From assembly GCF_921293095.1 (NCBI RefSeq), contig NC_060259.1, positions 46,915,812-46,979,811 on the forward strand: a stretch of 64,000 nt of DNA. Direction: 5' to 3'. Numbering within the stretch: position 1 is the stretch's first letter; every line of letters starts with the position of its first letter. Below, one piece after another: positions 3,148 through 51,330 of the stretch. A program made the position numbers and the translations under genes. The notes beneath the pieces were generated by a model, which was not told the origin of the DNA, made no database searches, and saw only the letters and a list, made by a program, of their open reading frames with translations. Origin of the DNA: Ischnura elegans. Its lineage: Eukaryota; Arthropoda; Insecta; Odonata; Coenagrionidae.

Positions 3148-4355
3148 TCAAGTATTCCGCAAGTCTACCGTTTGACGGCCGGGCTGTTCAGTTGGCTTTG
3201 ATCCTCCGGTTGAATTGCGGGTCTCATCTGCTGAGAGGTCACTGCTCAGGTCTGGTGCGGTGGCTCCTCTTTTGCGCCTGCCCTTCTTGCCGGGACCCGA
3301 TTTGCCACTATTGGCTCCACCTTTGCGATTTTTGCCAGCGCGATGGGGTTTCTTCTTATTCTGCTCATTATTAATGTCCTAAATGAAGACATAAGTGAGA
3401 CTAAGTAACTGAGACAGGCGAGATAGAGTGGAATGTCATCCTGATTTGGAGCAAAGGAGAGGCAATTTTCCACAACTTTATGTAACAATATACGACGCGT
3501 TTTTTAATTTCTATTACATGCACATTTTCGAAATAATTTTTGGAAAAACCTCATGTGCAGAAATATTCTGCTATGCTTGATAGCCTCGCCAACGTGTTAG
3601 AGCTAGAGTGTTTGCCTGTTGCAATGCATGTAAAAGGCAAATACTAGATTCTGAATGAAGCACTAGCCGAAAGTATGATCAACTAATCTTCCACAAGAAT
3701 AAAATATAATTCAGAATTATCCTTAATAATTTTGCAGAAAATAAAAGCCCGAAAATTATTTACATTTTATCGCTGACAAATAGTTATGAAGTAAAGCGCA
3801 ATTTAGTTTTACCTATGTATAACACTAACTAAACCTTGATAGAAGTGACAGAAGCTTATAAAACATATACAGTTGTATTCATCAAATACATCTGACATGC
3901 ATGAAAAAACTGATTAATATACCCTTCATCAAGACCTGGGATACACTGTTCAGTCGTAAACCATTGAAGTAAAAGAATAAATTTTTAATCACTCTCATTA
4001 GAATCTGTATTTTCACTGAGCATACCTTGTCGTGGTCACCGTCTTGGATGCTAGGTGCTGAGGCGATGGTTTTGATTACATCGCCCGTAGCACTGGGAGG
4101 GATATGGTGTGAACCGCAGTCAGGTATTCCGTCGGACATCATGATGTTCTCAATCACTACCACTCCTTTTACGCCATGCTCGCCACCACCGATTTCCTGA
4201 TCCTTCACTACTTCTGGTATGCTATACTCGTTCATCTCGGTGGCTCTCACCAATTTGTCTAACGGAGGTGGATCATTCTCACCATAGCCCAATTCCACAA
4301 TCACGGAAGCTACTGCAATGACGGAAAGTATAAGGAGGAAATTCATCGCTGGCAT
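3148..4355 (-). CDS. two-exon gene for a small secreted, highly basic protein
   Basis: Exon 1 coding part 4026-4355 (110 codons) starts at an ATG followed by a hydrophobic signal peptide (MNFLLILSVIAVASVIVELG) and ends at the donor AAG|GTATGC. Exon 2, 3148-3378 (76 codons plus TGA), starts at the acceptor TTCATTTAG|GAC. Both junctions are phase 0, so the reading frame continues without repair, giving about 186 residues. The mature part begins acidic (ENDPPPLDKL) with a single Cys (IPDCGSHH), then becomes Lys/Arg/Gly-rich in exon 2 (QNKKKPHRAGKNRKGG, GPGKKGRRKRGA) with a furin-like RRKR site, and ends in a Ser/Thr-rich acidic tail. The basic block suggests binding to heparan sulphate or nucleic acid; this is inference. 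No family is recognised. Intron 3379-4025 is AT-rich. The two coherent exons and matched phases make it a likely host gene rather than a transposon. Confidence 0.6.
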
Positions 4356-4383
4356 ATTCCCTCTCCAATGGCGGTTCGCGCTG

Positions 4384-4580
4384 CTGTTTCAAAAAGTAAA
4401 ACCTTGAAAAAACAATATGAAAAATTTGACTGAGTGAAATAATAACTGTTGTGATGAAATACTGCTGCAAATTAAATAAGCTAATAACTTTGTGAGTACT
4501 TACTCAGGATATAGTTGATGGGAACGCTTTTAAATTTCACTCACGAGGAGTAGTAGGTTAACTAGTTGTATACAGTGTTG
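4384..4580 (-). promoter_or_regulatory. probable 5' noncoding exon, leader intron and promoter of the 3148-4355 gene
   Basis: Upstream of the ATG on the minus strand there is an acceptor (TTTTTGAAACAG at about 4384) and, about 120 bp further up, a consensus donor (CCTGA|GTAAGTAC, exon end 4504). This implies a short noncoding first exon. A TTTAAAAG and a GTATACAA element lie further upstream and could serve as TATA boxes; which one is used cannot be told from sequence. Confidence 0.35.
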
Positions 4581-6364
4581 ATCTGCTTCATATGAAGTCA
4601 CGGCGCCAACTGTATCGCGTTATGCCGGCGCAACCAAAGCGCGACCCCAGATTCGTGGTTGTCTCCCTCTTACCCCTCCCCACCACATATCTCCGGCAAT
4701 GAGATGTGAAGAAGGAATTCGGAAGAAGTGCAGAATGTGTGACTTGTCATTTCCTTAAGAGGCCACACGGATCTCACGTTAAAGACGCTGGGCTGACAAT
4801 TCCACTTTGGAAGCAGATAAGGGATGTGCAGCGGCGATGGTATGATTTGTCAGGGAGGTATGCGGAGCTGGTCAAATTTGTTATCTCTCTGAATAAATGT
4901 GGTGCCCGCAAGTTAGTGCTATACGTAGTAGCATTAGCTGCTGATTTTTTCTATCAATGAATATAATTTCTTTACGTCCGAAAGTTCCGGCTTCTGAGAG
5001 TAATTCGTCTATCGTGCTAATTTTTTTACAGGGCACATAATATCATTCCTGATTGAGCATTATTCCTCATAATTTTCACATATGTGTATAATCTTTTGGT
5101 ACCGTCAGACAGTTGAGTCACCTTGCGTCAATGGTGAGGTTACCTTTGGATTGCAATACTTAACAATCCACGGCAATTCAAATTATACATAAGTGAACTT
5201 AAATGCATTTTCAAGAAACATTCCTCCTCTTTTCATACCCCTGCGAGCGAGATAGAAGTTTCGAGTCTTGTGTTGATTTAAAGAGTGTTCATTGCACACG
5301 CGGTAACCATGTGTGACATAACATCAATGTAATGCTGAAAATATAATTCTTTATACTTATTACATTTATCATACTTGCTGGTGGAGACTTCAGCTTGGCT
5401 TTTGGGTAGTCTTCCACGTCGATTCATCTTCGTGACAACAGTTTCACCGGCATTGGAGCAGGCGTCAGGTTTAAGAACTTCAAACCTGAAGACGTTGTCG
5501 TCATGAAGAAATTCAAACCTATTGACGCCTGCACGTCGAAGGTTCCATCATGGATTTTAACTACAATTTTAATATCATTTACAAAAAGTTATCGCCAATG
5601 GCAATGACTTACATATCGAGATATACGAATTTCCAACCTGATGTCATCAGAATTAGGAAAAGCCTCACTTGTCTTTTCCTCCCTTATTGTAGATATTTTT
5701 GTATTAGCGCAAAAATTCCTCTACCTACATACGCCGCAAAGTGGGCTGAAATTGAAATAAGGGGGCCAAAAATATTATCTTCCCTATTTTTATAATTAGC
5801 TCGATGAAATATATCCTAACAGTCTTGTTTAGGCTATATAACATGAATATAATGTAATTTTGCCGAAAAGTTGATCCGGGGAGTTGTTTCTAGACAAATT
5901 CGCGAAGACGGAAATTTAAAAAAAAAACCAACTATTTGGACCGCTTCAGTAGAGAGGGAATATTTCATTGAAATTAATAGTTACGAATAAAAAAGTATAC
6001 AGTTTAACATTGAATTTAATAATTTACATAAAAAATTCATATTAAATGCATAATTTTTTTAACATTATTAATTTTATCAATTAAATTTACGCCAATATTT
6101 TGTCTGAGTGAACACACGTAAGATATCGCCCAGCAAACAATTTCTACCATAAACCACAATTCCACATAAAATTATTTATGAACCATAGTAAATTAACATA
6201 AATATATAAAACATTAGAAAACATAAGGTGTAAATTTACCAGCCCACTACCAGTTTTCATCGGATTCCCAGCCGTCACTGTCCTCATCAGAAGTTGGCTC
6301 CTCTTTTACGAGTAAGTTTCGTTTATCCTTTGAAACACTTCTTTTAGCATTTATAGATAGATAA
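4581..6364. other. no gene recognised
   Basis: Contains open frames at 4706-4960 and 5550-5795 on the plus strand without recognisable motifs or good starts. A short imperfect inverted repeat around 5467-5528 (TTAAGAACTTCAAACCTGAA versus related GAAATTCAAACC) is visible. The rest is AT-rich. Confidence 0.35.
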
Positions 6365-9350: not shown

Positions 9351-10613
9351 CTGTGGGCTTCAGTCTTCCGCCTTAAAATTTTGGGCGTCCTCGAATGTTT
9401 TCCATCAGAAACGCTCAGAAAATCATAGAGTGAGCATAATGTAGGAATTGTGTTAAACTTTTCCTACAAAATATGCATTACTTACACATAAATTGTTAAT
9501 TATTTTCTAATTATGAAGAATGTAACGTTATTTTGAAGTCAGAGAAATATTTTATCATGGACAGTTTCCGCTGTTTATTTAATTCTTACTCTCAAATTGA
9601 AATAATTAGTTACACTCGACTCATTTTATTCGCGGGAAAAATGTGTTAAAATTATATTCTAATTAATAAATATATTAATTAAATATTATTAATTAAAAAT
9701 ATATTAATAATATAAAATAATTCGTGTGAAAATGAGGTTATAAAATAATTACGTTAATTTTTCTTACCAATTTATCAAATCTACTTATCTAATATACAAT
9801 TTGTGGTATGAGGCTCAGTTACGAAGCAAAACCTAACAAATGAAATATTAGTAACGGATTACATATATCTATAAGTAAAGAGAATTTATTGTTGTGATTC
9901 GAAGAATGACCTTCCATTCCGTCTTTTTCTCTTTATTATCGGTATTTTCAATGCTACTTATCCAATAGAGAGGCCAATTGAAGTTACTCTATTCGCCCGT
10001 AAGCAGTGTTTGATCGATTCTTGCCATTTTCGTCATGGATCTAACCAGCAAGCCACCAATTGTATTAAAAAATTGCGTCAAGTAGAACAGAATATTTCTC
10101 ATTTACTCCATTCTGAGGTTTTTACTACATAATAGTTGCTTAACTGAAATGTGCATTGAAGATGAACTAATGGAGCGGATTATGTTACTAAAAAATAAAA
10201 TTAATGGAGTTGAATGATGAATTAAACATTCATCTTTCTATCATTTTGGTGGTATCCTATCTTTGCCAACAATTACCAACAATTTTCCTTCCATGCTGTT
10301 CTGTATTAAGGTTTGGTGCTTGAGTTATTTTCCGATGACGTTTTCTTCCTTATTAAAATTTTTCTAATGGTTCTTTTTCTGCATGGGATCCAATTGAAGC
10401 GTGATAAATTAAATTTCACTTCGTCTACCTAGTTATTGTAACCCTCTTACAAAACCACATGTTCGCTTTTAGTTGGGTCATCCCACCCTTCCTTGGTGTC
10501 CATGTCTCACATCCATGTTATCAGCACATTCCATTCAAAACGCTTCGGGAATTTCTTCCTCGTCTCAACATTAAAGCTACTTGCGCGAAAAATCCACAGA
10601 AAAACAATCAATC
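9351..10613. other. no gene recognised
   Basis: AT-rich intergenic sequence. 9655-9720 is a low-complexity run of TAATTAA-type units. Nothing coding is seen. Confidence 0.4.
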
Positions 10614-10685
10614 GCCTTGACCAGGATTCGAACCCGGATCCACCGATTTCTAGTCGAGTGCTTTAGCCAGTTAAACGACCGAGGC
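10614..10685 (-). repeat. tRNA-derived SINE head (tRNA-like sequence)
   Basis: Read on the minus strand, this is a tRNA-like cloverleaf: acceptor arm GCCTCGG with six of seven pairs, a box A-like D arm (GTTTAACTGGCTAAAGC), anticodon loop CTAGAAA (AGA), and a near-perfect T arm/box B (CCGGGTTCGAATCCTGG). An AGA anticodon would mean serine, but the long variable arm of tRNA-Ser is missing and no CCA-type or terminator context stands out. A RNA polymerase III-derived SINE or tRNA pseudogene is therefore more likely than a functional tRNA. Confidence 0.6.
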
Positions 10686-13619: not shown

Positions 13620-13790
13620 AGACGTAGCCATGGAAACGGAGAGCTGGTTTACGAGAGATATAAGCGACAGCGAAGTTTTTTCTCCGGGATATTAAATTTA
13701 CAGATGCGATGGACGCAATAGAACAGGGGGCGGAGTTCTTATAGCAGTTAAATCACATTTACACAACGCCATCCATGAATCAATTGACAA
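13620..13790 (+). pseudogene. LINE endonuclease fragment
   Basis: The plus-strand frame reads METESWFTRDISDSEVFSPG, a stop, then IYRCDGRNRTGGGVLIAVKS. This is the APE-type endonuclease block of non-LTR retrotransposons (the TET glutamate and the R-x-D-R..GGGV signature). Only this block is left. A mirror copy lies at 14623-14790. Confidence 0.75.
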
Positions 13791-14179
13791 CTCGATTAAT
13801 TAATTCGACCCGAAGTAGTTTTGACTCCGATTTCGTTTCGACCCTGAGTTAAGCTCCCCGGGTTTAAATCCATTTCATTACATTTCTACATTTCGCTACC
13901 AGGAACGAAACAATTGAAATTTTACTGGTTTCAACTTTTGTTTAGTTTCTGTTGCCATCCCTGCTTAAAACAACACAGGTGACAAACTTAACAATTCCTA
14001 AGTGCCCATCCAACTGTGTTCTATTAACATTTTCGAAGAAAGAGTACCACGCAGTGCTTCTACAAAATTCCTCCAGCGATCCATGTCCTCCTGGGAAACC
14101 ATTATCCCATGCTCGCACCATCCACAGCCGGACTCATGAACTACCATAGACTATTGTGAGATAACGTGAATAACTCAAT

Positions 14180-14390: not shown

Positions 14391-14622
14391 GATGTCCTCA
14401 CTGTCGCATTCAAATATGCATAAATATAAGATGCATGTAGTATCAGTCACACGAATATGAAACTACGCTACGAAACCCGGGTTGAGCCTATTTAAATATA
14501 CAAGTGAACCTTACAAAGTTTAATTCTTTTATTTCCAACATGGAGAGGTTTCACAGAGTCAAGCCTGAAGTCAGTTATACTCCTTTCGTTGTTTAATTGT
14601 ACACCATATAATTTCTATTTAG

Positions 14623-14790
14623 ATGTCAATTAATTCATGGGTGGCGCTGTGTAAATGTGATTTAACTGCCATAAAAGCTCCGCCCCGTGTTCAATTGTGT
14701 TCATCGCATCTGTAAATTTAATTTCCTGGAGGAAAAACTTCACTGTCGCTTATATCTTCCGTAAGTCAGCTTTCATTGCATTCATGCAGT
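14623..14790 (-). pseudogene. LINE endonuclease fragment, inverted copy
   Basis: The reverse complement matches 13620-13790 closely: GATATAAGCGACAG pairs with CTGTCGCTTATATC, and the following TTAAATTTACAGATGCGATG block is shared. It covers the same endonuclease block, so two copies of one LINE region face each other about 830 bp apart. Confidence 0.7.
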
Positions 14791-20117: not shown

Positions 20118-20122
20118 CGCTC
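20118..20122. other. target-site duplication, left (CGCTC)
   Basis: CGCTC immediately before the element start is repeated exactly at 24617-24621 after its end. A 5-bp GC-rich duplication is characteristic of Transib insertion. Confidence 0.9.
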
Positions 20123-21171
20123 CACAGTGGTCGGAAATCGAAAAACGCCGGACAAAAGTCCGAAATGGCTTTTTTTGAGGTAGACAATTGAAATTTGGCA
20201 CAAATACGGGGAAATAGTTGCTGATTTTGAAATAGCAAGTCATTTTTATTAAGTCTCAGCCGTTACGGAGTTACGGAGGCTTAAACATGACGAAATTTCG
20301 AAAAACACGCCATTTATCATTTGTCTTCGAAAATGTAAAACGTTACGCAGATGGTAGAGCAGTGGATGGATTTTCATGAAATTTTTAACATGTTCATCTG
20401 TCATTATAGTTTCTCGCCTGTACTTTGCATAAGTTTCAGACATTTTTGTTGATATTTGTGTGCTGTAATGTATCAAAATGGCGGAAGCTTTTTTCAAGCA
20501 AAATTTCACTTAAAGCAGTCATTATCTTTTTTATAAGAAATATGTATGTCGAGATATTTCGTAATAATACTGAGAAAACATATTTAAACGTTTGTCTGCA
20601 AAAGGTTTGGGAAAAAGTTTGCGGCCCTGAGAGAAAATTCGAATTTTCGACCGCGCGTCGCGGTCCGGCTCCACGCGGCGGACCCCGGTAATATCGATTG
20701 CGTGTGATGGTTGAAGTTGTTTGCACCTAAATTCCTCAAATTTGCCTTTTTCAAGCAAAAAACACTTTTGTGGATTTCCTAAGGTTCTATATCGAAGATA
20801 TTTTGAAAGCAGTGTTGGTCATTAGGTCATAAAATGGCGGACATTTTGTTAGGCAAAAGTTAACATAAAGTAGTCATTATCTCTGGTTTTAGAAAAATGT
20901 ATATCATGATTTTTTGTCAGGGTATTAAGTAAACATAATTTTAAAGTATTCTGCAAAAATCTGCGGAAAACGTTTGCGACCCTGAGAAAAAATTTCAATT
21001 TTCGATCGCGTTTCCCGGCCCGGCTCGGCTCAGCGCGGCCTCGAAACTCCGACTCCTCGTACTGACGAATTTCTGAGGACCTTAATGTCCTGTAATCGCC
21101 TTACTCAAAACATCCATGCTGTCAATGGTAACCAAATGTCATATATTTATTATCATGGAGGGATACTATAT
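20123..21171 (+). repeat. Transib left inverted arm
   Basis: It ends at 21171, where pairing stops (21172 against 23567 mismatches). Within it, 20475-20690 and 20831-21045 are diverged copies of each other: AAAATGGCGG, TCATTATCT, GCGGAA..GTTTGCG.CCCTGAGA and TTTCGA.CGCG occur in the same order. The arm is thus built from a duplicated module of about 220 bp whose GC-rich tail differs. Small frames inside it are not real genes. Confidence 0.9.
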
Positions 21172-21887
21172 CCAGCGCATGTGTTTGTAGACTGTGATGC
21201 CTAACTGTGATGAATATGCTTTTCTTCGGTTACTCCACGGAATTTTCCGAGTAATTATGAACTCCTTCAATTCCTGAGTGCACATGAGGGTGTTTTTTTC
21301 CTCATACACTCTTTTGTGGAAGGGTGTTGGGTTGGCTGTTTTCCCTTTCCACTCTCTTTGCATTTTCAAACTGCAAGCCGCCAAATCCCTCCGCCTTCAC
21401 AGCACCATGCGACTCGGTCCCTGAGGGAGTTTTTATGACACCGCGCACCCTTTAACAGTTATGATGGGTTTTCCCTGGGTGGTCCTTCCCTATCCTTTAA
21501 AGAAAATGCATGTTGAACAGTAGTTCCATCTTGGCATTTGCGGTGAAGTGAATTGGGAGAAATCTGTTCTGAAAAAATATTTTTTTTACTCGCGATATTG
21601 AGTGTGAGTGATAGGAATCCCTACCGATTTTTTTTTCTAAGGTTTACATCGGTGTTTTTTTCCTCAGCAATCCACACCTTATTCGAGGTAAGATATATTT
21701 CCATGTGTTTTTGCCTGGTGTTAGTCATTCGTGCTTTTTCGTCCCAGGTATCTTACGTCCCTTGAACTATTTTTTACAAACTTTCTTCAATACCGATTTT
21801 TCGCCCCTACTTTCTGGTGTTATGTAGCCTATCGTTGTTGAACAATTTGTGGAATGGGTAGATTCATTCTATTAGATTAATTTTCAG

Positions 21888-23292
21888 ACCTTAGACAAGT
21901 TTTTCAGTCCTTATTGGATGTGTCTTTCAATTTTATCACACGGCTTGAGCTCCATAATAGATTTATGGGCATAAAGTTAAAATCACCAACTGAAAAAATG
22001 GAATATTTGTTTAATTTTCTTGTGCGAAGATTTGATTTAGGTCAATTTGATGACGCTATTAGAAGTCTTCGTGAATTTGTCAGATTAAGCTTTTTGTTGC
22101 CCTACTTGCAAAGGTGGAAAAGAAGTTCTCGGAATAAAAAAACATTTTTAAAGCGAAATAACGCATGGCTCATGGAGTCGATGAACTGTCCTGACACCGT
22201 GCGTCAGTATTTGACTAGCACTTCTGCTGAGACTAGTAAATACCATCCGGTGAAAACCTTTCTTTTTCATTGAACGACATAATATTTTTATTCTTGGGTT
22301 ATTTACTTTTAAATAATTACTTCCTAGGTTCACTGGGAAGGCCGGAAATAGATTTTAGTGTTTCCTCGGAGAGATCAAAAAGACTTAAGGTCCAAAATAT
22401 TAAAATGTCTTCCTCTGCTGCGGAGCTCGCATTGGCAACCTCTCTGAGTTTAAGGGAGGAAGGAGATATTGCGGCCGCCGAACTATTTTCCGAAGTAACG
22501 ACAACCACTCCTAGTAGGGCGAGAAGAGTTTTGTCTAAATGGAGAAAAAGGGATAATCCCCAGAGGGAAATGACCCCTGAAGAAGCTGTGTCTCTCGTTA
22601 TTACAACTGAGCTAACGAAGAGTCAGTACAATACACTGAGACGCTCGGCTCAAAATTATGGACACAAGCTTTATCCAAGCTACGATAGAGTCCTAAACGC
22701 GAAAAGTATGGCATACCCCGAAGGAATCAGGGTAACTGAAAACATGTGCGAAGTGAGTCTTCAAACTCTTAAAGCACACAGCTTCGCGAATTCTGTCCTA
22801 CATTTCAACTGCTGAAACCTCATATGATGAAGTAGATTGCACACTAGTGTGCAAATATGGATTTGATGGCAGTTCGGGCCATGCCCAATATAAGCAATTG
22901 TGGGAACTATCTGACTCATCAGATGACTATTTAATTATGATCTCCCTGGTGCCACTTAGGTTACTAAATGACAATACACGTATGAGATTTACGTGTCTAT
23001 TTTCTCTGTATTTTATCCAATTGGAATCATTACGGGAATTTTTAGTACTTTTAATATTCCAGGTGAGATATTATGGGCGAATCCTCGGCCATCTTCTACG
23101 AGATTTTGCCGACCTATTCGCCTTCAGTGGCTAAAAGAGACTAGAGAAGTTGCGAAAGCAGAGAGAGATTACATAAAAGAACAGAATGATGGATTGGATA
23201 AATTGAATTTTAGGGGTTATTAAGTAGCATTCAATTTGCTATTAACAATGATAAACGGAAAAGTAAGGCCAATTCCAATCTCAAATGCAGTA
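21888..23292 (+). pseudogene. Transib transposase gene, broken and truncated
   Basis: Exon 1 is 21888-22235: acceptor TTTTCAG, then an N-terminal Leu/Phe/Arg-rich part (SLREFVRLSFLLPYLQRWKR), then donor ACTA|GTAAAT. Exon 2 is 22328-22979 (SLGRPEIDF, RSKRLKV, HKLYPSYDRVLNAKSMAYPE, then KYGFDGSSGHAQYKQ with the first catalytic Asp, and SLVPLRLLN). Exon 3 starts at 23063 (EILWANPRPSSTRFCRPIRL, comparable with the RAG1 segment around AKPNSELCCKPLCLM). Defects are a one-base frameshift near 22768, an in-frame TAA at 23221-23223, and LLTMINGKV where the family has TMIDGK, so the second catalytic Asp reads Asn. The C-terminal part with the catalytic Glu is absent before the right arm begins. It cannot make active enzyme and would need help in trans. 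Confidence 0.85.
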
Positions 23293-23567
23293 AAATAATA
23301 TATGGCTTAAATTATTAACCTTAAAAAATATTCTCTTAGGCCTTATTCTTCTTCCTCACAACCCCAGCTAATCTGCACTTCGAACCTTCTCACTTCGGTT
23401 GGAGACAGGAAATACGCCGCGGGACACCATTTTTTCCTCGAAACTCCATGAAAGTACAGGACAGGCATGTAGAACCCAGCTGCTTTGGAGTCGCACAGAA
23501 AAATACCAAATCTTATCCCGGAGGTTTACCATGTTTATTTTGTAATATTTCGTACCTTAGCATCTAA

Positions 23568-24616
23568 ATATAGTATCCCTCCATGATAATAAATATATGA
23601 CATTTGGTTATCATTGACAGCATGGATGTCTTGAGTAAGGCGATTACAGGACATTAAGGTCCTCAGAAATTCGTCAGTACGAGGAGTCGGAGTTTCGAGG
23701 CCGCGCTGAGCCGAGCCGGGCCGGGAAACGCGATCGAAAATTGAAATTTTTTCTCAGGGTCGCAAACGTTTTCCGCAGATTTTTGCAGAATACTTTAAAA
23801 TTATGTTTACTTAATACCCTGACAAAAAATCATGATATACATTTTTCTAAAACCAGAGATAATGACTACTTTATGTTAACTTTTGCCTAACAAAATGTCC
23901 GCCATTTTATGACCTAATGACCAACACTGCTTTCAAAATATCTTCGATATAGAACCTTAGGAAATCCACAAAAGTGTTTTTTGCTTGAAAAAGGCAAATT
24001 TGAGGAATTTAGGTGCAAACAACTTCAACCATCACACGCAATCGATATTACCGGGGTCCGCCGCGTGGAGCCGGACCGCGACGCGCGGTCGAAAATTCGA
24101 ATTTTCTCTCAGGGCCGCAAACTTTTTCCCAAACCTTTTGCAGACAAACGTTTAAATATGTTTTCTCAGTATTATTACGAAATATCTCGACATACATATT
24201 TCTTATAAAAAAGATAATGACTGCTTTAAGTGAAATTTTGCTTGAAAAAAGCTTCCGCCATTTTGATACATTACAGCACACAAATATCAACAAAAATGTC
24301 TGAAACTTATGCAAAGTACAGGCGAGAAACTATAATGACAGATGAACATGTTAAAAATTTCATGAAAATCCATCCACTGCTCTACCATCTGCGTAACGTT
24401 TTACATTTTCGAAGACAAATGATAAATGGCGTGTTTTTCGAAATTTCGTCATGTTTAAGCCTCCGTAACTCCGTAACGGCTGAGACTTAATAAAAATGAC
24501 TTGCTATTTCAAAATCAGCAACTATTTCCCCGTATTTGTGCCAAATTTCAATTGTCTACCTCAAAAAAAGCCATTTCGGACTTTTGTCCGGCGTTTTTCG
24601 ATTTCCGACCACTGTG
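23568..24616 (-). repeat. Transib right inverted arm
   Basis: Reverse complement of 20123-21171 with very few differences (one seen: GGTTATCATTG here against GGTTACCATTG). It ends in CCACTGTG at 24609-24616. Confidence 0.9.
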
Positions 24617-25010
24617 CGCTCCCTAGAACCCCCACCGGACGGCTTCGCCATTCGCCGTCCACGTCGGTCAATGGCTTGATCGGAGGCGTGTGTCGCAACC
24701 CGCGGTTGCGCCGCGGCTCCCCATTCCTTCGTATTGGGGACCGCTGTGCCGCTCAGCGCCGTTCCTCATTTTGGGGTTATGTGCCCCACCGCGGCTACCA
24801 CTTTGATCCTTCCAACAGCTTCGCCATTCCTCGTCAAGGGTTCACTTCGACGCCCGACGATTACCGTAGCCCACCCGCGCTCACGACTCCTTGGAACGGC
24901 TTAGCCGCAAAGGCTTTCACTCCTCACCAAGCATTGCGTACTACCAGCTATCGTCCATGGATTCGGTAATGATGAGTCCAAGGGGCAAAGAAGATGCGGC
25001 AGAATCTAGA
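24617..25010. other. GC-rich flank with open frame, unassigned
   Basis: It begins with the right target duplication CGCTC (24617-24621). It is far more GC-rich than its neighbours, with repeated CTTCGCCATTC and CCGCGG-type words. A frame covers 24496-24969 but starts inside the Transib arm, so it is not a single gene. It may be part of an older element that the Transib entered; no family is recognised. Confidence 0.35.
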
Positions 25011-26747: not shown

Positions 26748-29179
26748 CAGTGGCACAGCGAGGGGGGGTTTTGGGGGTTAAACCCCCCCCCCCCAGAGCT
26801 CAGAGAAGTTTTTAAGTTTAATCCATTTTATTTAATGGGATTGATATTTCTAATAGAATACTGTGAGGATGAATAAAATATCCCTCAGAAAGCCGTATAA
26901 CTCACCATTTTGAACAATTTATCTTTAAAATTCCGCAATTTATTAATCTCGCACCTACCGCTTATCCTGGTAGGTATTCCATACCTCAACACACCCTGGT
27001 ATTAGTTGCACCTAACGGTAATAGGCCCCTTTCAGACGCAACGGCTTTTCGCCGGCCGCCGTCCACGGCGCCGCGCCGTGAAATTCAGGCAGCTTTCAGA
27101 CGAGACGACTTTCCGCCGGTCGCCGTTCACGGCGCGGAGCGTCGTTAAATACAGAGAACAGTACGGCAAGCAATCGGCACGGCCATCAGCGACATTTATT
27201 CAATAGTTCTTGAGTCGTTATCATGAATAGGAGCGAATTTTAAAATATTAAATAAATTATTATTTTAATTGTTTACTGCTGTGAGATCAACCTTCACTTA
27301 AATCTATACTGCTGATATAAATTTTATCTATGCTGCTTATATATAAAATTTAGTTTAGGTAACCTCGATACAAATATAAAATCTGTAACTAGCCAATGAG
27401 TAACTCATTTGATAGGTTATTATTATTTAATTTCTTTTTAAAATTATTTATTTAAGCATTATTTTACATAAAATTGTTTTTAGACAAAGGAAACATAAAA
27501 TTTCATTACTAAAGAAAGATAATGTAATAGATCTTAACACTTTCATGTGAGCTGGGGTGTGTATCATAGTGATTTTTTCATTCAGTCCGATTTTAGAATT
27601 TTTTATTGTTTACTTCTCAAAACATTATCTATCAGAAATTCTTTCCAGTACTTTCAAATAATTAAAAAGATCAAACAGGAAGAAAAAAATACAAAGAATT
27701 TTTACAAAATACATAAAATATTGATAAAGTTGAAACCTTTCGCTGCATCCCATATCCCAAAACACTATACCACTTCTCTCACAGAATAAGTTGACTGGTT
27801 TGACGGCGTAGAATTAAGTGATGTCGGAGAATGAATTGATCCTGCTAGAGGAGAAGAAACTGCTCGCAACTGCTGTATCCTCTCCAGAATGTTCAATACC
27901 TCGATTTGGTAGTTAACTGTTTCCGCATCCTTGAGGTTATGCATGCTTGGTAGAGTTCCTTTAAAAAAGTTTAAATTACTAGGCTCCTCTTTTCCTCAGG
28001 CTCAACTTTTATGTCCATGTAGGATTATAAAAAAAGGATCACCGAGTTACCTCGAGATATTTACACCACATATGCAACAAAACCTATAGAGAGTGATACC
28101 AAAAGGAGAAAGCGACCACTCGCGACGCCGAAATTAAGATCGATTTTTCGAACGTGCGGCACAGTTCGGAGCTTTCAGCTGTCCACGGGGAATACCGTGC
28201 TCGACGGACGTTGGAAAGTGAATTTTTTAGCAAGTTAATTACATATAAGATATAATTTATTTAGTGCCACCTTCAATTTACATTTCATATAACCTAATTT
28301 CTTCGTTATAATTATCGATATTTATCGTCGATACGATACAAATTGTAAAACTGTTTTTCGTCGAAATTTTGTGTTTATTTGGGATCATAAGAAAAGGGTC
28401 ACCGTGCTATCTCAAGATATTTACATTTAATTACATCAAACATTTTAGAGTGTCCATCAAAAGAAATCAAATACGACCATTAGAATCAACTAAAAATAAA
28501 AATCGATGTTTTTGCCGCGCGCGCAGTCCGCGGCAGCTCCCCGATCGTATGGAATGTCTAGACTCGGTGTAATTTACAATTGATATGTACATAAAGTCAT
28601 ATAGACTATTTTTGCGTATATCGTTAGTCTTATTATTTACTTAATAGAATACACATATTTAAGCCTTTTTTTCTCTATTTCTCCATTTAAATAAATGATT
28701 AGCTCTAGATAGGTTGATAGCTGTTGGACATATCGCACACGTAATTGCATGACTTGGATTTGGTAGAAAAGCGTCAACATCCACTATAAAATCTCCCATC
28801 TCGTTCAAAAACACAATTTAAAATTTGGGAACGATGAAATATTATTCATGTCCGCATTTCTTCGCCGATCACGCTACTCTGAATTCTATAGAACTACGCG
28901 GCGGACGGCATAAGTCGTCGCGTCTGAACAGTCCAATACACCACAGTGTTTATTTCACGCCGTGGACGGCGTACGCCGGGCCGGATTGAAATGGGAGCCG
29001 TGGATACCACGGCGGCCGTCCACGGCGTCGTGTCGTCCACGGCGTGATTCGACTCGTCTGAAGACACCCATTGCTAACAATGGTTATTTAAAGGCATTGT
29101 GCCGTGCCGTGGACGGCGGCCGGCGAAAAGCCGTTGCGTCTGAAAGGGGCCTAAACCTTAATTCTTAGCTACGCCCCTG
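26748..29179 (+). mobile_element. hAT-like MITE split by another element
   Basis: The left end CAGTGGCACAGCGAGG and right end (reverse complement) CAGGGGCGTAGCTAAG are flanked by a perfect 8-bp duplication CATGGGAG (26740-26747 and 29180-29187), the hAT insertion size. The outer parts match the uninterrupted copy at 31149-31449 in inverted orientation (AGAGCTCAGAGAAGTTTTTA, AATTTATTAATCTCGCA). The copy is interrupted at 27022/29153 by a 2.1-kb element. Confidence 0.85.
27023..29152 (+). mobile_element. 2.1-kb non-autonomous DNA transposon with 47-bp TIRs
   Basis: The left end AGGCCCCTTTCAGACGCAAC (continuing GGCTTTTCGCCGGCCGCCGT) is repeated in reverse complement at the right end, giving about 47 bp of perfect TIR. 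Versions of CCGTCCACGGCG recur inside both ends (27050-27150, 28960-29120). No transposase is recognisable in the AT-rich middle. The ends resemble Harbinger-type or hAT-type GC-rich TIRs, but the target duplication is ambiguous, so the superfamily is open. Confidence 0.8.
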
Positions 29180-31148: not shown

Positions 31149-31449
31149 ATGGGCGCAGCTAGGATTTAAGACTGGGGGTGTTTAGGGGCAACTATAACCG
31201 GGGCATATGGGGGTATGGAATATGCACCAGGATAACCAGCAGATGCGAGATTAATAAATTGCGGAATTTTAAGATAAATGGTTCAAAATGGTGACTTTTA
31301 CGGCTTTATGAGGGATATTTTATTAATCCTTACACAGTTCTATTGGTGATATCAATCCAATTAAGTAAAATGGATTAAACTTAAAAATTTCTCTGAGCTC
31401 TGGGGGGGGGGGGGGGTTTATCCCCCAAACCCCCTCACTGCGCCACTGA
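31149..31449 (-). mobile_element. hAT-like MITE, intact copy of the family at 26748
   Basis: A 300-bp copy in inverted orientation relative to 26748. Ends are CATGGGCGCAGCTAGG on the left and CCTCACTGCGCCACTG on the right. Flanks ATCTGAGT and ATCTGGAT agree at 6 of 8 positions, consistent with an aged target duplication. A poly-G run of about 16 bases lies inside. It gives the uninterrupted form of the split copy. Confidence 0.75.
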
Positions 31450-36074: not shown

Positions 36075-36190
36075 GCTTGTGGATTTTGATTTGTGGTATA
36101 TAAACATAAGAATTCTCACAAGATATCGTTCGATTAAATGTAAAAATGCCGTAATAATCCTCAAGTATCAACAGCTTATTTCAGTGTGAA
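36075..36190. repeat. degenerate terminal repeat S, copy 1 of 4
   Basis: Contains ATATCGTTCGATTAAATG, then ATAATCCTCAAGTATCAACA and TTCAGTGTGAACA. Related sequences lie at 38935-39079 (inverted), 40146-40290 and 43035-43150 (inverted), so each palindrome arm has S at both ends in opposite orientation. Confidence 0.5.
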
Positions 36191-36375
36191 CAAATTGCAG
36201 CTGTGCCAGAAGTGAGATCATTTATAATTCACCTCATGGATTTGGTACCTGAATTTTGATTTGTACGTCGGAGATTTGATTGGCTCCGTATTTTTTACGT
36301 GTTAAGAATAATGATAACAACATTGACGCGAATAAATGAATCACCAAGAAGAAAACGAAGACATAGTTAATAAGA

Positions 36376-37175
36376 AGCAAGGAAAGCTGCCAAGGAAGTT
36401 AAAGATGATGGGATCGTAGATACTTCAAACAGTCCATGGGTATCTCCAGAGGTATTGGTCATGAAGAAATATGCATCAATGAGATACTGCATCGACTACC
36501 GCCTCATGAAAAATATCAATAAGGACAGCTTTCGGTTGCCATTAATAGATGACACATTAGACACCCTCGGAGGATACAGATTAGTTTTGTTATTGGATCT
36601 GAAAAGTGGATTCTAACAAGTGGGCCTGAAGTCGGAGGACAAAGACAACTGCATTAATAGTTGCTGAAGGACTATGGCATTTATATTTCATGCCATTTCG
36701 TCTCTGTAATGCGCCAGCTACCCTTGAAAGGCTTATGGAAAATGTGTTGACATAACTATCTTGGAAAATCTGCTTGGTCTACTAAGATGAAATAATTGTT
36801 CTGGGAAAGTCCTTCAATTACTACCTTCCCAAATTGAAGAAGGTATACCAAAGGTTAATGCATGCAAATCTCAACCTGAATTCAAAGAAGTGACACCTCT
36901 TCAGAAGGCCACTCAACTACCTTGGTTACGTGGCATCCAACTCAGGAGATGTCCCGCACTCTGAGAAAAAAGAAGCTGTAGCTGCTTGGCCAGTTCCAAG
37001 TAACAATGATGAGATTAGACCTTTTCTTGGACTGTGCACATATTATCGGCAGTTTGTGAAGGGGTTCTCAAATGTGGAACACCTCAAACTAAGGGTACTG
37101 AGGAAAAGAGCAGCTTCACTTGGGATGATAGCTGTCAGCAAGCATTTGATGAGCAAACACGTGATCAGGCCACAT
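36376..37175 (+). pseudogene. Ty3/gypsy reverse transcriptase, left arm unit 1
   Basis: Successive frames give [33 protein letters not shown] followed by a stop and QVGLK, MPFRLCNAP, a decayed Y.DDIIV region, then NYLGYVASN and RPFLGLCTYYRQFVKGFSN. These are the ordered RT blocks of Ty3/gypsy pol. The segment has several stops and frameshifts and breaks off after the thumb. A second copy follows about 974 bp downstream. Confidence 0.8.
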
Positions 37176-37329
37176 CAGAAGTTGGATCCTTTACTTTTTA
37201 AATCTCTCACGTGGTACCTGAATGTAGACTTTTACCTTGGAGACTTGATTGGCTCCGTATTTTTTTCGCGTTTAGAATAATGATAACATCATTGACACGA
37301 ATAAATGAATCAGCAAGAAGAAAACGAAG

Positions 37330-38150
37330 ACATAGTTAATAAGAAGCAAGAAAAGTTGCCAAGGAAGTGAAAGCCGATGGGATCATAGAGCCTTCAAACA
37401 GTCCATGGGTATCTCCAGTGTTATTGGTCATGAAGAAATATGCATCAACGACATACTGCATCGACTACCGGCTTTTGAACAATACCTATCAATAAGGACA
37501 GCCTTCCTTTGCCATGAATAGGTGTTACATTAGACAGCCTTGGAGGATGCAGATTAGTTTTGTTATTTGATCTGAGAAGTGGATTCTAACAAGTGGGCCT
37601 GAAGTTTGAGGACAGAGAGAATACTGCACTAATAGTTGCTGAGGGACTATGGCAATTCAATGTCATGCCATTTCGTCTCTGTAATGCCCCAGCTACGTTT
37701 GAAAGCCTTATGGAAAATATGTTGACAGGACTATCTTGGAAAATGTGTTTGTCTACTAAGATGACATAATTGTTCAGGGAAAGTCCTTCAATTACTACCT
37801 TCCCAAATTGAAGAAGGTATACCAAAGGTTAATGCATGCAAATCTCAACCTGAATCCAAAGAAGTGACACCTCTTCAGAAGGCAACTCAACTAACTTGGT
37901 TACTTGGCATGCAACTCAGGAGATGTCCAGGACCCCGAGAAAAAGGAAGCTGTAGCTGCTTGGCCAGTTCCAAGTAACAATGATGATATTAGACCTTTTC
38001 TTGGACTGTGCACATATTATCGGCAGTTTGTGAAGGGGTTCTCAAATGTAGAAAACCTCAAACTAAGGGTACTGAAGAAAAGAGCAGCTTCACTTGTGAT
38101 GATACCTGTCAGCAAATATTTGATGAGCTAACACCTGATCAGATCAGATC
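37330..38150 (+). pseudogene. Ty3/gypsy reverse transcriptase, left arm unit 2 (tandem copy)
   Basis: Repeats unit 1 at an offset of about 974 bp, including upstream noncoding text (GACTTGATTGGCTCCGTATT) before each unit. It again shows YCIDYRL, MPFRLCNAP and RPFLGLCTYYRQFVKGFSN with different point changes and indels, so the two copies have drifted since duplication. Confidence 0.8.
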
Positions 38151-38199
38151 AGAAGTGGGATCCTTCCTTTTTTACGTCTCTCAGGTGGTATCTGAATGT

Positions 38200-38880
38200 A
38201 GATTTTTACCTTGGAGACTTGATTGGCTCCATATTTTTTTCATGTTAAGAATAATTATAACAACATTGACAGAAAAAACTGAATCACCAAGAAAAAAATG
38301 AAGACATAGTTAATAAGAAGCAAGAAAAGTTGCCAAGGAAATGAAAGCCGATGGGATCATAGAGCCTTCAAGCAGTCCATGGGTATCTCTTGTGGCATTG
38401 GTCATGAAGAAATATGGATCAACGGAATTATGCATACACAACACCCCCACCCTATGTAACCCAAGGCAGAAGGCAAGTTCATCTTGGATACAGATTCTAT
38501 CAATGTGGCCATTCAAGGAGTTTTCTCAAAGGAGCGGGAAGTGATTGAAAAGGTCATTGGATACTTCGGTAAGGTTTTGTCAAAACCTGAGTGCAACTAC
38601 CGTGTCACCCTTGGGGAGCTATTGGCAGTAGTTAAAGACGTTGGACACTTTTCCATGTATTTGCCTGGAAGATACACTATACTCAGAAGTGATCATGCAT
38701 CGCTGAAGTGCCTTCTTACTTTAAAAACTCCTGTAAGGCAAGTAGCATGCTGGATATAACAGCTCCAGGAATCTGAATTTCAATCAGTCCATCCAGCAGG
38801 AGCCACTCATGGAAATACTGATTTTCTTATCAGGAGGGCCGTGAGAGGAAAGCTGCAAACACCGCTCATGTCATGACAAC
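38200..38880 (+). pseudogene. third partial unit fused to Ty3/gypsy RNase H, left arm
   Basis: A third unit starts with the same leader (GACTTGATTGGCTCC near 38218) and the RT start block (DGIIEPSSSPWVSLVALVMK). It is then deleted directly to RNase H: ILDTDSINVAIQGVFSKE, VIGYFGKVLSKPECNYRVT, ELLAVVKDVGHF and LRSDHASLKCLL. Integrase and gag are not visible. Confidence 0.8.
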
Positions 38881-38934
38881 AAGGAAGTATTATTATCTTC
38901 GGGGTAAAGGCAGAGAATGACAGGAAAATAGTGT

Positions 38935-39079
38935 ATGTGTTCACACTAAAATAATTCATCCTGTTTGTTGAAAGAAGCTTTGACACTTGAGGGTAATAAC
39001 AGCACTTTATATAAAACACTAAAAGAACGATTTCTTAAATTAATTTCTTTCATTCCAAGCCACAAATTAATATCTAGTA
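38935..39079. repeat. degenerate terminal repeat S, copy 2 (inverted)
   Basis: TTTGACACTTGAGGGTAATA, GCACTTTATATAAAACACTA and ATTCCAAGCCACAAATTAAT; mirror of copy 3 across the spacer. Confidence 0.6.
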
Positions 39080-40145: not shown

Positions 40146-40290
40146 TACTAGATATTGATTTGTGGCTTGGAATGAAAGAAGTTAATTTAAGAAATCGTTC
40201 GTTGAAGTGTTTTATATAAAGTGCTGTTATTACCCTCAAGTGTCAAAGCTTCTTTCAACAAACAGGATGAATTATTTTAGTGTGAACACA
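40146..40290. repeat. degenerate terminal repeat S, copy 3
   Basis: Inverted partner of copy 2 (TATTGATTTGTGGCTTGGAA, AAGTGCTGTTATTACCCTCA). Confidence 0.6.
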
Positions 40291-40345
40291 TACACTATTT
40301 TCCTGTCATTCTCTGCCTTTACCCCGAAGATAATAATACTTCCTT

Positions 40346-41026
40346 GTTGTCATGACATGAGCGGTGTTTGCAGCTTTCCTCTCACGGCCCTCCTGATAAG
40401 AAAATCAGTATTTCCATGAGTGGCTCCTGCTGGATGGACTGATTGAAATTCAGATTCCTGGAGCTGTTATATCCAGCATGCTACTTGCCTTACAGGAGTT
40501 TTTAAAGTAAGAAGGCACTTCAGCGATGCATGATCACTTCTGAGTATAGTGTATCTTCCAGGCAAATACATGGAAAAGTGTCCAACGTCTTTAACTACTG
40601 CCAATAGCTCCCCAAGGGTGACACGGTAGTTGCACTCAGGTTTTGACAAAACCTTACCGAAGTATCCAATGACCTTTTCAATCACTTCCCGCTCCTTTGA
40701 GAAAACTCCTTGAATGGCCACATTGATAGAATCTGTATCCAAGATGAACTTGCCTTCTGCCTTGGGTTACATAGGGTGGGGGTGTTGTGTATGCATAATT
40801 CCGTTGATCCATATTTCTTCATGACCAATGCCACAAGAGATACCCATGGACTGCTTGAAGGCTCTATGATCCCATCGGCTTTCATTTCCTTGGCAACTTT
40901 TCTTGCTTCTTATTAACTATGTCTTCATTTTTTTCTTGGTGATTCAGTTTTTTCTGTCAATGTTGTTATAATTATTCTTAACATGAAAAAAATATGGAGC
41001 CAATCAAGTCTCCAAGGTAAAAATCT
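40346..41026 (-). pseudogene. third partial unit with RNase H, right arm
   Basis: Mirror image of 38200-38880, with the same protein blocks on the minus strand. Confidence 0.8.
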
Positions 41027-41075
41027 ACATTCAGATACCACCTGAGAGACGTAAAAAAGGAAGGATCCCACTTCT

Positions 41076-41896
41076 GATCTGATCTGATCAGGTGTTAGCT
41101 CATCAAATATTTGCTGACAGGTATCATCACAAGTGAAGCTGCTCTTTTCTTCAGTACCCTTAGTTTGAGGTTTTCTACATTTGAGAACCCCTTCACAAAC
41201 TGCCGATAATATGTGCACAGTCCAAGAAAAGGTCTAATATCATCATTGTTACTTGGAACTGGCCAAGCAGCTACAGCTTCCTTTTTCTCGGGGTCCTGGA
41301 CATCTCCTGAGTTGCATGCCAAGTAACCAAGTTAGTTGAGTTGCCTTCTGAAGAGGTGTCACTTCTTTGGATTCAGGTTGAGATTTGCATGCATTAACCT
41401 TTGGTATACCTTCTTCAATTTGGGAAGGTAGTAATTGAAGGACTTTCCCTGAACAATTATGTCATCTTAGTAGACAAACACATTTTCCAAGATAGTCCTG
41501 TCAACATATTTTCCATAAGGCTTTCAAACGTAGCTGGGGCATTACAGAGACGAAATGGCATGACATTGAATTGCCATAGTCCCTCAGCAACTATTAGTGC
41601 AGTATTCTCTCTGTCCTCAAACTTCAGGCCCACTTGTTAGAATCCACTTCTCAGATCAAATAACAAAACTAATCTGCATCCTCCAAGGCTGTCTAATGTA
41701 ACACCTATTCATGGCAAAGGAAGGCTGTCCTTATTGATAGGTATTGTTCAAAAGCCGGTAGTCGATGCAGTATGTCGTTGATGCATATTTCTTCATGACC
41801 AATAACACTGGAGATACCCATGGACTGTTTGAAGGCTCTATGATCCCATCGGCTTTCACTTCCTTGGCAACTTTTCTTGCTTCTTATTAACTATGT
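41076..41896 (-). pseudogene. Ty3/gypsy reverse transcriptase unit 2, right arm
   Basis: Mirror image of 37330-38150; its open frames are identical to those of the left arm where checked. Confidence 0.8.
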
Positions 41897-42050
41897 CTTC
41901 GTTTTCTTCTTGCTGATTCATTTATTCGTGTCAATGATGTTATCATTATTCTAAACGCGAAAAAAATACGGAGCCAATCAAGTCTCCAAGGTAAAAGTCT
42001 ACATTCAGGTACCACGTGAGAGATTTAAAAAGTAAAGGATCCAACTTCTG

Positions 42051-42850
42051 ATGTGGCCTGATCACGTGTTTGCTCATCAAATGCTTGCTGACAGCTATCA
42101 TCCCAAGTGAAGCTGCTCTTTTCCTCAGTACCCTTAGTTTGAGGTGTTCCACATTTGAGAACCCCTTCACAAACTGCCGATAATATGTGCACAGTCCAAG
42201 AAAAGGTCTAATCTCATCATTGTTACTTGGAACTGGCCAAGCAGCTACAGCTTCTTTTTTCTCAGAGTGCGGGACATCTCCTGAGTTGGATGCCACGTAA
42301 CCAAGGTAGTTGAGTGGCCTTCTGAAGAGGTGTCACTTCTTTGAATTCAGGTTGAGATTTGCATGCATTAACCTTTGGTATACCTTCTTCAATTTGGGAA
42401 GGTAGTAATTGAAGGACTTTCCCAGAACAATTATTTCATCTTAGTAGACCAAGCAGATTTTCCAAGATAGTTATGTCAACACATTTTCCATAAGCCTTTC
42501 AAGGGTAGCTGGCGCATTACAGAGACGAAATGGCATGAAATATAAATGCCATAGTCCTTCAGCAACTATTAATGCAGTTGTCTTTGTCCTCCGACTTCAG
42601 GCCCACTTGTTAGAATCCACTTTTCAGATCCAATAACAAAACTAATCTGTATCCTCCGAGGGTGTCTAATGTGTCATCTATTAATGGCAACCGAAAGCTG
42701 TCCTTATTGATATTTTTCATAAGGCAGTAGTTGATGCAGTATCTCATTGATGCATATTTCTTCATGACCAATACCTCTGGAGATACCCATGGACTGTTTG
42801 AAGTATCTACGATCCCATCATCTTTAACTTCCTTGGCAGCTTTCCTTGCT
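42051..42850 (-). pseudogene. Ty3/gypsy reverse transcriptase unit 1, right arm
   Basis: Mirror image of 36376-37175 with a few nucleotide differences from the left arm (for example at the YCIDYRL block). Confidence 0.8.
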
Positions 42851-43034
42851 TCTTATTAACTATGTCTTCGTTTTCTTCTTGGTGATTCATTTATTCGCGT
42901 CAATGTTGTTATCATTATTCTTAACACGTAAAAAATACGGAGCCAATCAAATCTCCGATGTGCAAATCAAAATTCAGGTACCAAATCCATGAGGTGAATT
43001 ATAAATGATCTCACTTCTGGCACAGCTGCAATTT

Positions 43035-43150
43035 GTTCACACTGAAATAAGCTGTCGACACTTGTGAATTATCACAGCACTTTATTTTATGTAATTAAAT
43101 GAACGATCTCTCAAAAGAACTCTTTTACTTCCATTCCATAAATCAACATC
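43035..43150. repeat. degenerate terminal repeat S, copy 4 (inverted)
   Basis: GCTGTCGACACTTGTGAATT, ACAGCACTTTATTTTATG and GAACGATCTC match copies 2 and 3 loosely and mark the right end of the palindrome. Confidence 0.5.
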
Positions 43151-51181: not shown

Positions 51182-51330
51182 TTGTAAGTTCTCAATAGGT
51201 AAATAACACCATATCATGAATTCTAATTACCATGAAAGACTCACGACCGACAAAGTTTTTGTCGGTTGTGAGTTTTTCATGGTAATTAGAATTCATGATA
51301 TAGTATTATTTACCCATTGAGAACTTACAA
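51182..51330. repeat. 149-bp near-perfect palindrome (hairpin)
   Basis: Arms of about 74 bp pair around 51256 (left TTGTAAGTTCTCAATAGGTA, right TACCCATTGAGAACTTACAA) with only a few mismatches and essentially no loop (CCGACAAAGTTTTTGTCGG). It lies inside the THAP element. Confidence 0.9.

Follow-up and report, generated by a model that had tools for sequence, protein, structure and literature searches.

Kilobase inverted arms in a Transib lineage of Ischnura elegans

Transib transposons, members of the superfamily ancestral to RAG1, are known from Drosophila with short terminal inverted repeats (TIRs), which measure 40-45 bp in transib1-4 (PMC10299278). In the genome of Ischnura elegans, a Transib copy ends instead in two inverted arms of 1,049 bp each, and this locus raises the question of where such arms come from and what keeps them alike. 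The copy lies at positions 20123-24616 of the window, that is, the whole stretch of 64,000 nucleotides that was analysed (C19:46915812-46979811, contig NC_060259.1), and its relatives were searched for in the genome, which measures 1.72 Gb. We hold it to be quite probable that it is an internally deleted copy of one family, A, in a long-armed Transib lineage comprising families A, B and C, that the tips of the arms are the recognition end, that the arms are homogenised by copying, and that the lineage began when an ancestral 5' end was copied onto the 3' end.

The window copy, 4,494 bp long, stands between exact target-site duplications of the sequence CGCTC (20118-20122 and 24617-24621). Its left arm occupies 20123-21171 (plus strand) and its right arm 23568-24616 (minus strand), with 2,396 nt between them; the arms pair without indels and have just two mismatches, at arm positions 987 and 1006. 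Both tips read CACAGTGGTCGGAAATCG and begin with the heptamer CACAGTG (20123-20129 on the plus strand, 24610-24616 on the minus strand). The initial annotation, made from the letters alone, had pointed out the heptamers, the GC-rich 5-bp duplication and the nearly identical arms, and all of them are present as it described. Each arm also holds two copies of a 192-nt internal repeat, 73% alike at an offset of 355; unmentioned in the initial annotation, they lie at 20489-20680 and 20844-21035 (plus strand) in the left arm, and at 23704-23895 and 24059-24250 (minus strand) in the right arm.

Remnants of a transposase gene, all on the plus strand, lie between the arms. They comprise a stop-to-stop frame with the N-terminal exon (21881-22273; the putative intron begins at about 22253, and the exon limits are predicted), a stop-to-stop frame with the second exon (22240-22815; E 1.8e-6 to 6pqn, the solved Hztransib transposase), which is lost near its end, the continuation in another frame with GFDGSSGH and the first catalytic Asp (22757-23134), and a stop-to-stop frame with most of the third exon (GEILWANPRPSSTRFCRPIR...; 22972-23223; E 4.6e-6 to 6pqn). 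An AAC (Asn) codon at 23254-23256 is aligned with D225 of Hztransib. At the deletion junction at 23340, 1,637 bp of the 6.2-kb form of the family are gone, including the C-terminal exons (3192-4828 of the element at locus L017; that element, for its part, is missing 49 bp close to exon 3 which the window copy has). At a second junction, which sets the inner limit of the right arm, a further 125 bp are gone (5058-5182 of the L017 element), and the right arm is shortened. Because the window copy has no C-terminal exons and its frame is broken, it could move only in trans.

The assignment to Transib, already made in the initial annotation, was borne out by homology to Hztransib 6pqn: the C-terminal exon of the 6.2-kb form matches it at E 5.4e-38, the zinc-motif exon at E 2.7e-16, and the family-B exon with the first catalytic Asp at E 2e-21. 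Judging from the frames and GT/AG signals, the gene appears to be split by introns. No family model of Pfam (seven frames) or NCBIfam (four frames) matched the transposase frames, and inspection by eye of the longer frames inside the 6.2-kb form, with no search aimed at RAG2, showed only Transib-type exons. The RAG1-core-like transposase goes with a 5-bp GC-rich duplication and with CAC tips whose heptamer resembles that of the recombination signal sequence (RSS), and a superfamily other than Transib was considered and rejected. In structure, the kilobase inverted arms across family members and the existence of arm-only derivatives place the element in the long-TIR (foldback) class.

A search of the genome with the arm returned 804 first-look candidates, and the 40 that were scored are 98-100% identical and lie on many contigs. 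The 40-bp tip, with at most three mismatches, occurs at 158 places (75 forward and 83 reverse), whereas the reversed-pattern control gave 0 on both strands; among the first 100 places listed, there are 34 convergent pairs at 1.0-8.0 kb, and 32 places have no partner within that listing. Chance is excluded by these 158 tips against none in the control, and by the arms, tips and 5-bp duplications common to independent copies. We read 33 family-A loci (the window copy and L017-L048), 29 of which have both arms at 960 or more positions, the longest arms being 1.13 kb; the arm comparison omits L038, L040, L041 and L045, where one or both arms are missing from the stretch fetched. Among the loci read, complete forms reach 6,231-6,233 bp, with arms of 1,126-1,127 bp. 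When segmental duplicates are collapsed, 23 insertions remain, or 26 independent insertions with the short derivatives L055-L057, and exact 5-bp duplications are found at all of the 26 except L042, which is one base off. On one strand, CGNNG fits 25 of the 26 duplications, the misfit being the CGCTC of the window itself, and CGNCG fits 12. It had been suggested at the outset to look through the genome for other copies with arms of about 1 kb and 5-bp duplications; such copies exist, and the arms are thus neither specific to one copy nor an assembly duplication. Since several independent insertions have the shortened right arm of the window copy, this form has itself moved. Family-A copies have moved as entire units with CACAGTG at their borders, leaving 5-bp duplications of the CGNNG type, as expected of Transib cut-and-paste.

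Relatives with long and with short arms live side by side in this genome. When the C-terminal exon and the second exon served as queries, 4,207 and 1,890 first-look candidates came up, and the 150 scored for each fall at many identity levels, so Transib looks abundant in Ischnura elegans; autonomous Transibs typically have one or at most a few copies, according to Kapitonov and Koonin (PMC4411706). In family B (L050), the arms measure 999-1,011 bp and the exact duplication is CTCCG; in family C (L051), they measure 973-999 bp and the exact duplication is CGTCG. Among 41 matches listed for the B arms, 11 convergent pairs were found, ten with both arms of at least 960 bp and the other with one shorter arm; among 42 listed for the C arms, there are 15 such pairs, 12 with both arms of at least 960 bp and the others with one shorter arm. 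Family D (L052), on the other hand, has a 39-bp TIR in an element of 4,154 bp with the duplication CGACG, and no inverted match longer than 39 bp is present in its 138 matches, five of them copies that span all 4,154 positions. Family N (L054) has a TIR of about 39 bp at about 88%, with the flanks CGGCG and CGGAG one base apart. Family G (L053) and a second B copy (L049) each show a single tip within the stretch read, where no left end of L049 was found. As observations on the surroundings, the C copy L051 sits within another inverted repeat of host or transposon origin (672-791 and 6143-6196; 54-nt arms, 96%), and near L049 (1-2448, minus strand) are retroelement-like frames, gag-like and reverse-transcriptase-like as judged by eye.

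The long arms mark a lineage. A maximum-likelihood tree joins A, B and C at 95.5/88 unrooted, 95.4/80 rooted with Hztransib, and 93.1/76 with a further family, P, added. The arms of A and B differ by about 31% across 553 bp, and those of A or B share only 77-79 bp with those of C by BLAST. An 11-bp box, AAAATGGCGGA, does not vary among five arm repeats from families A, B and C and is absent from D and N; it lies near arm positions 355 and 712-719, and in the left arm of the window copy it occurs at 20475-20485 and 20831-20841 (plus strand).

The outermost part of the arms belongs to a wider circle of relatives. Eight tips from families A, B, C, D, N and G have in common CACAGTGG, then 21 bp, then [AC]CAAAA, with 23 of 40 positions invariant. 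Because the TIR of family D stops at the same point as this shared tip (~38 bp), the extra ~1 kb of A, B and C lies outside the shared recognition end, and the tip (heptamer, 22 bp and [AC]CAAAA box) is the outer edge of arms of 0.96-1.13 kb. The RSS-like recognition tip, nearly common to the short-armed relatives, is in this way set apart from the rest of the arm. The RSS nonamer consensus is ACAAAAACC. A box 22 bp after the heptamer agrees with it at 7 of 9 positions in A, B, C and D, at 6 in N and at 5 in G, and the best nonamer match in N and G falls at a spacer of 10-11 instead. In the window copy this box, ACAAAAGTC, is at 20152-20160 (plus strand) and, placed by arm position, at 24579-24587 (minus strand). 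The initial annotation had asked for a spacer and nonamer-like motif behind the heptamer; the box with the 7/9 agreement is a candidate, yet 2.1-3.4% of shuffled A, C and D tips reach 7/9 at a spacer of 22-24. A 23-RSS-like layout is therefore at most faint, and as it appears equally at both tips, it would give no 12/23 pair. The TIRs of Hztransib are likewise described as having little or no nonamer similarity (PMC8289069). The long arms had further been thought to bear on how RSS-like ends evolve. Only the outer ~38 bp are RSS-like, and since short-armed relatives have nearly the same tip, the long arms say little on the origin of such ends; nor do they give a 12/23 asymmetry.

What, then, keeps the two arms of a copy alike? 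Over 964 columns and 23 insertions, within-copy arm differences total 34; when the arms were re-paired among copies (2,000 trials), the mean was 483 differences and the minimum 352. Changes private to one copy occupy 86 columns in both arms against 24 in one arm (14 of the 86 are a single deletion in both arms of L034), and for alleles shared between copies, 174 copy states have the allele in both arms and 10 have it in a single arm. In L037, one arm carries a short tract of alleles of another subfamily. The loci L043, L044, L046, L047 and L048 represent one insertion that was segmentally duplicated, with flanks that differ at 0-3 of 536-600 positions; the contigs carrying them are C19 (twice), C4, C3 and C5, at about 0.1-4.2 Mb from contig ends. 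These five vary at 9 both-arm columns and 14 one-arm columns, and at 7 of the 9 (167, 271, 323, 452, 503, 720 and 783) the allele is unseen in the 22 other copies. Because these both-arm alleles arose at a fixed site after insertion, each arm can serve as template for the other in place, and the five duplicates show this process in the act. Copying between arms keeps them alike, and at least part of it happens in place, without new transposition. Per base, the arms of the five duplicates have diverged more than the inner part or the flanks; sequence imported from other copies may account for this. Nothing on this point can be learned from the two other pairs of duplicates: L017/L028 have no arm differences, and L030/L031 have two one-arm sites.

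Other explanations of the arms and of their likeness deserve consideration. The short TIRs of Drosophila transib1-4, and the short-armed relatives in this very genome, would suit the idea that an ordinary short-TIR Transib has long arms at the window copy alone, or has them through an assembly duplication; however, arms of the same type occur at many sites, in both orientations and with separate duplications, and copy-specific alleles are present in both arms of a copy. On this multi-copy evidence the idea is rejected, and we give it practically no chance. Selection on function, such as transposase binding, promoter or host-factor sites (the AAAATGGCGGA boxes, for example), might keep the arms alike instead of copying, and the invariance of this box at its two kept positions speaks for it. 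It is nevertheless very improbable, for the following reasons: (i) copy-private changes, including the 14-bp deletion, are present in both arms, on which ground selection alone was rejected; (ii) the difference of about 31% between the A and B arms implies that most positions are unconstrained; (iii) D and N manage with ends of about 39 bp; and (iv) the arm-only derivatives, with 166-450 bp on one side, have exact duplications, even if they were possibly shortened after landing. Another proposal confines the equalising of the arms to transposition or the ensuing gap repair, so that it never happens in place. Most both-arm changes (the 86 private columns and the 174 shared copy states) are undatable relative to insertion and would fit it, whereas the nine columns of both-arm alleles among five duplicates of a single insertion do not; we regard this proposal as improbable. 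Finally, A/B and C might have gained their long arms independently, as the short BLAST-shared sequence between them would allow, and we judge this rather unlikely in view of the tree; among the few families read, no short-armed one was found nested between A/B and C.

For the origin of the arms, we return to the reading of one long-armed lineage. The A, B and C arms were compared with the 5' ends of D and N in six tests; four of these showed a likeness, with 0 of 200 shuffles reaching the score, and no such likeness was found to the 3' end of D or N (six tests) or of G (three tests). Since the arms are like the 5' end of the short-armed relatives and unlike their 3' end, the long-armed lineage probably received its present 3' end as a copy of its 5' end. 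This would have happened in the common ancestor of A, B and C: the 5' end, a stretch of about 1 kb ahead of the transposase gene, would have been copied, and a TIR of about 40 bp would have grown to 1 kb. From then on, the palindrome would be kept uniform by homology-directed repair in which one arm serves the other, be it gene conversion or synthesis-dependent repair with template switching, and the same inter-arm repair would sometimes collapse copies to arm-only derivatives. In three such derivatives, L055, L056 and L057 (1,041, 1,272 and 1,343 bp), a long arm is joined to 166, 450 and 229 bp of the other, respectively; they have the exact duplications CTGCG, CGTCG and CGATG, and the join of L057 holds an inverted 23-nt piece of the inner end of the arm. 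Their make-up is what repair across inverted arms might leave behind, and they may have moved as such or been cut down after insertion. With long- and short-armed relatives in one genome, the origin of the arms becomes testable, both as to which end was copied and as to when.

Several observations weigh against this reading. No likeness to the 5' end of D is seen in the arms of A and B (Z -0.3 and 1.4), which limits the case for the origin to C compared with D and N, and to A and B compared with N; the comparison of A with the 3' end of N is also not clean, 9 of 200 shuffles reaching its score. The 34 within-copy differences persist, and one-arm columns (14) outnumber both-arm columns (9) in the segmental duplicates, so the copying is incomplete. 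Tree support for a single origin of the long arms is modest, and few families were read. Moreover, A, B and C have Asn in place of the second catalytic Asp, and an enzyme of their own that moves them is consequently only putative.

This Asn, in lineages of many copies, is a separate and directly testable puzzle. The catalytic triad of Hztransib is D126, D225 and E436 (PMC6941560). By alignment, GFDG corresponds to D126 and SEEA.EAR to E436, both at an offset of 17 from the 6pqn chain; applied to D225, this offset points to the Asp of IDGK. The complete triad was not seen in family A: the first Asp and the Glu are present where readable, and the position of D225 is Asn in all 20 loci where it could be read, out of 33 that include several duplicates of a single insertion. 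Asn was read in a single copy of each of B, C and G as well, and Asp in a single copy of each of D and N. Genome-wide, an exact degenerate motif, which misses variants such as that of family B, was found at 340 places, 272 with Asn (Asn-Gly-Lys) and 68 with Asp, and its controls were found once each. Because P (L058), the sister of B at 97.7/100, has Asp, the state changed more than once. The dN/dS between A and B is 0.10, other family pairs being saturated at synonymous sites, and the mean pN/pS within A is 0.57 (13 copies with equal exon length, of 20 tried). Purifying selection as proof for the Asn forms was dropped, since the sister P has Asp and the constraint may predate Asn. A-to-I recoding of the Asn codon by RNA editing has no support from local RNA folds: the fold z of 141-nt stretches with the codon is 0.05 in A, 0.11 in C and 0.59 in G, next to -0.55 in D and 0.98 in N, which have Asp; the stretch of family B folds slightly better than shuffles (z -2.04, 8/200), with the first base of its Asn codon in a loop. 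As the Asn-bearing long-armed families have nevertheless multiplied, two speculations are raised, and taken together they are rather improbable. Either the Asn enzyme might be made inactive and become competent later (by Asn-Gly deamidation, for example, which would delay transposition), or the Asn forms might be DNA-binding regulators, with the long-armed families moved in trans by rarer Asp relatives through the shared ~38-bp tip, while self-copying arms would keep both tips intact.

How do these elements compare with known systems? With Hztransib and Drosophila transib1-4, they have in common the RAG1-like transposase, the CAC tips and the 5-bp GC-rich duplication, and the TIRs of transib1-4 come close in length to the ~39 bp of D and N. 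Transib miniature inverted-repeat elements (MITEs) of Helicoverpa armigera have TIRs of 13-27 bp and CNNNG duplications (PMC7764229). The ~1-kb arms and the Asn for the second catalytic Asp set A, B and C apart from known Transib, in a comparison that leaves aside Hztransib, which "has long TIRs" of a length given only in a figure (PMC1852546). A close likeness in design is found in Galileo, an element of the P superfamily in Drosophila, with TIRs of 18-1,250 bp in D. mojavensis (mean 668), internal direct repeats, 98-100% TIR identity per copy, two-TIR derivatives, and a proposed TIR extension by copying one end onto the other; its authors regard long TIRs as a convergent trait (PMC3573991). 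Galileo differs in superfamily and transposase and in its 7-bp flanking sequences; the exons described here are of the Transib type and the duplications are 5 bp. ProtoRAG, the protostome RAGL elements and TransibSU resemble our families in TIRs that start with CAC, 5-bp duplications and a RAG1-like enzyme (PMC7204232, PMC4411706, PMC8289069). Conserved TIR parts in these groups are 13 identical bp in TransibSU-1_PM, about 13-15 bp shared between protostome species, and an asymmetric 27/31 in ProtoRAG. The RAG-like transposons carry a RAG2-like gene; in the 6.2-kb form, reading by eye showed only Transib-type exons. A long-arm design is therefore known elsewhere. For Transib, we found no description of long or foldback arms in the literature searched, which was taken without Repbase and without the length of the Hztransib TIRs. 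The suggestion that the copy is a new structural variant stands to this extent, and is tempered by the "long TIRs" of Hztransib. The present families extend the long-arm design of Galileo and of foldback elements to the superfamily ancestral to RAG1.

It should be mentioned that the window holds other features. A tRNA gene lies at 10613-10685 on the minus strand (Rfam RF00005, 41.8 bits), and Rfam at the gathering threshold found nothing besides it in the whole window. A larger inverted repeat at 36143-39020 and 40206-43083 has arms of 2,878 bp around a spacer of 1,185 bp, with 12 mismatches, all in the outer 363 bp, and internal repeats of about 975 bp at 91%. Two inverted repeats of 82-89% (26783-27015 with 31182-31413, and 13639-13792 with 14621-14774) are perhaps older elements, and a hairpin at 51182-51330 has 73-bp arms that are 93% complementary, with 3 nt between them.

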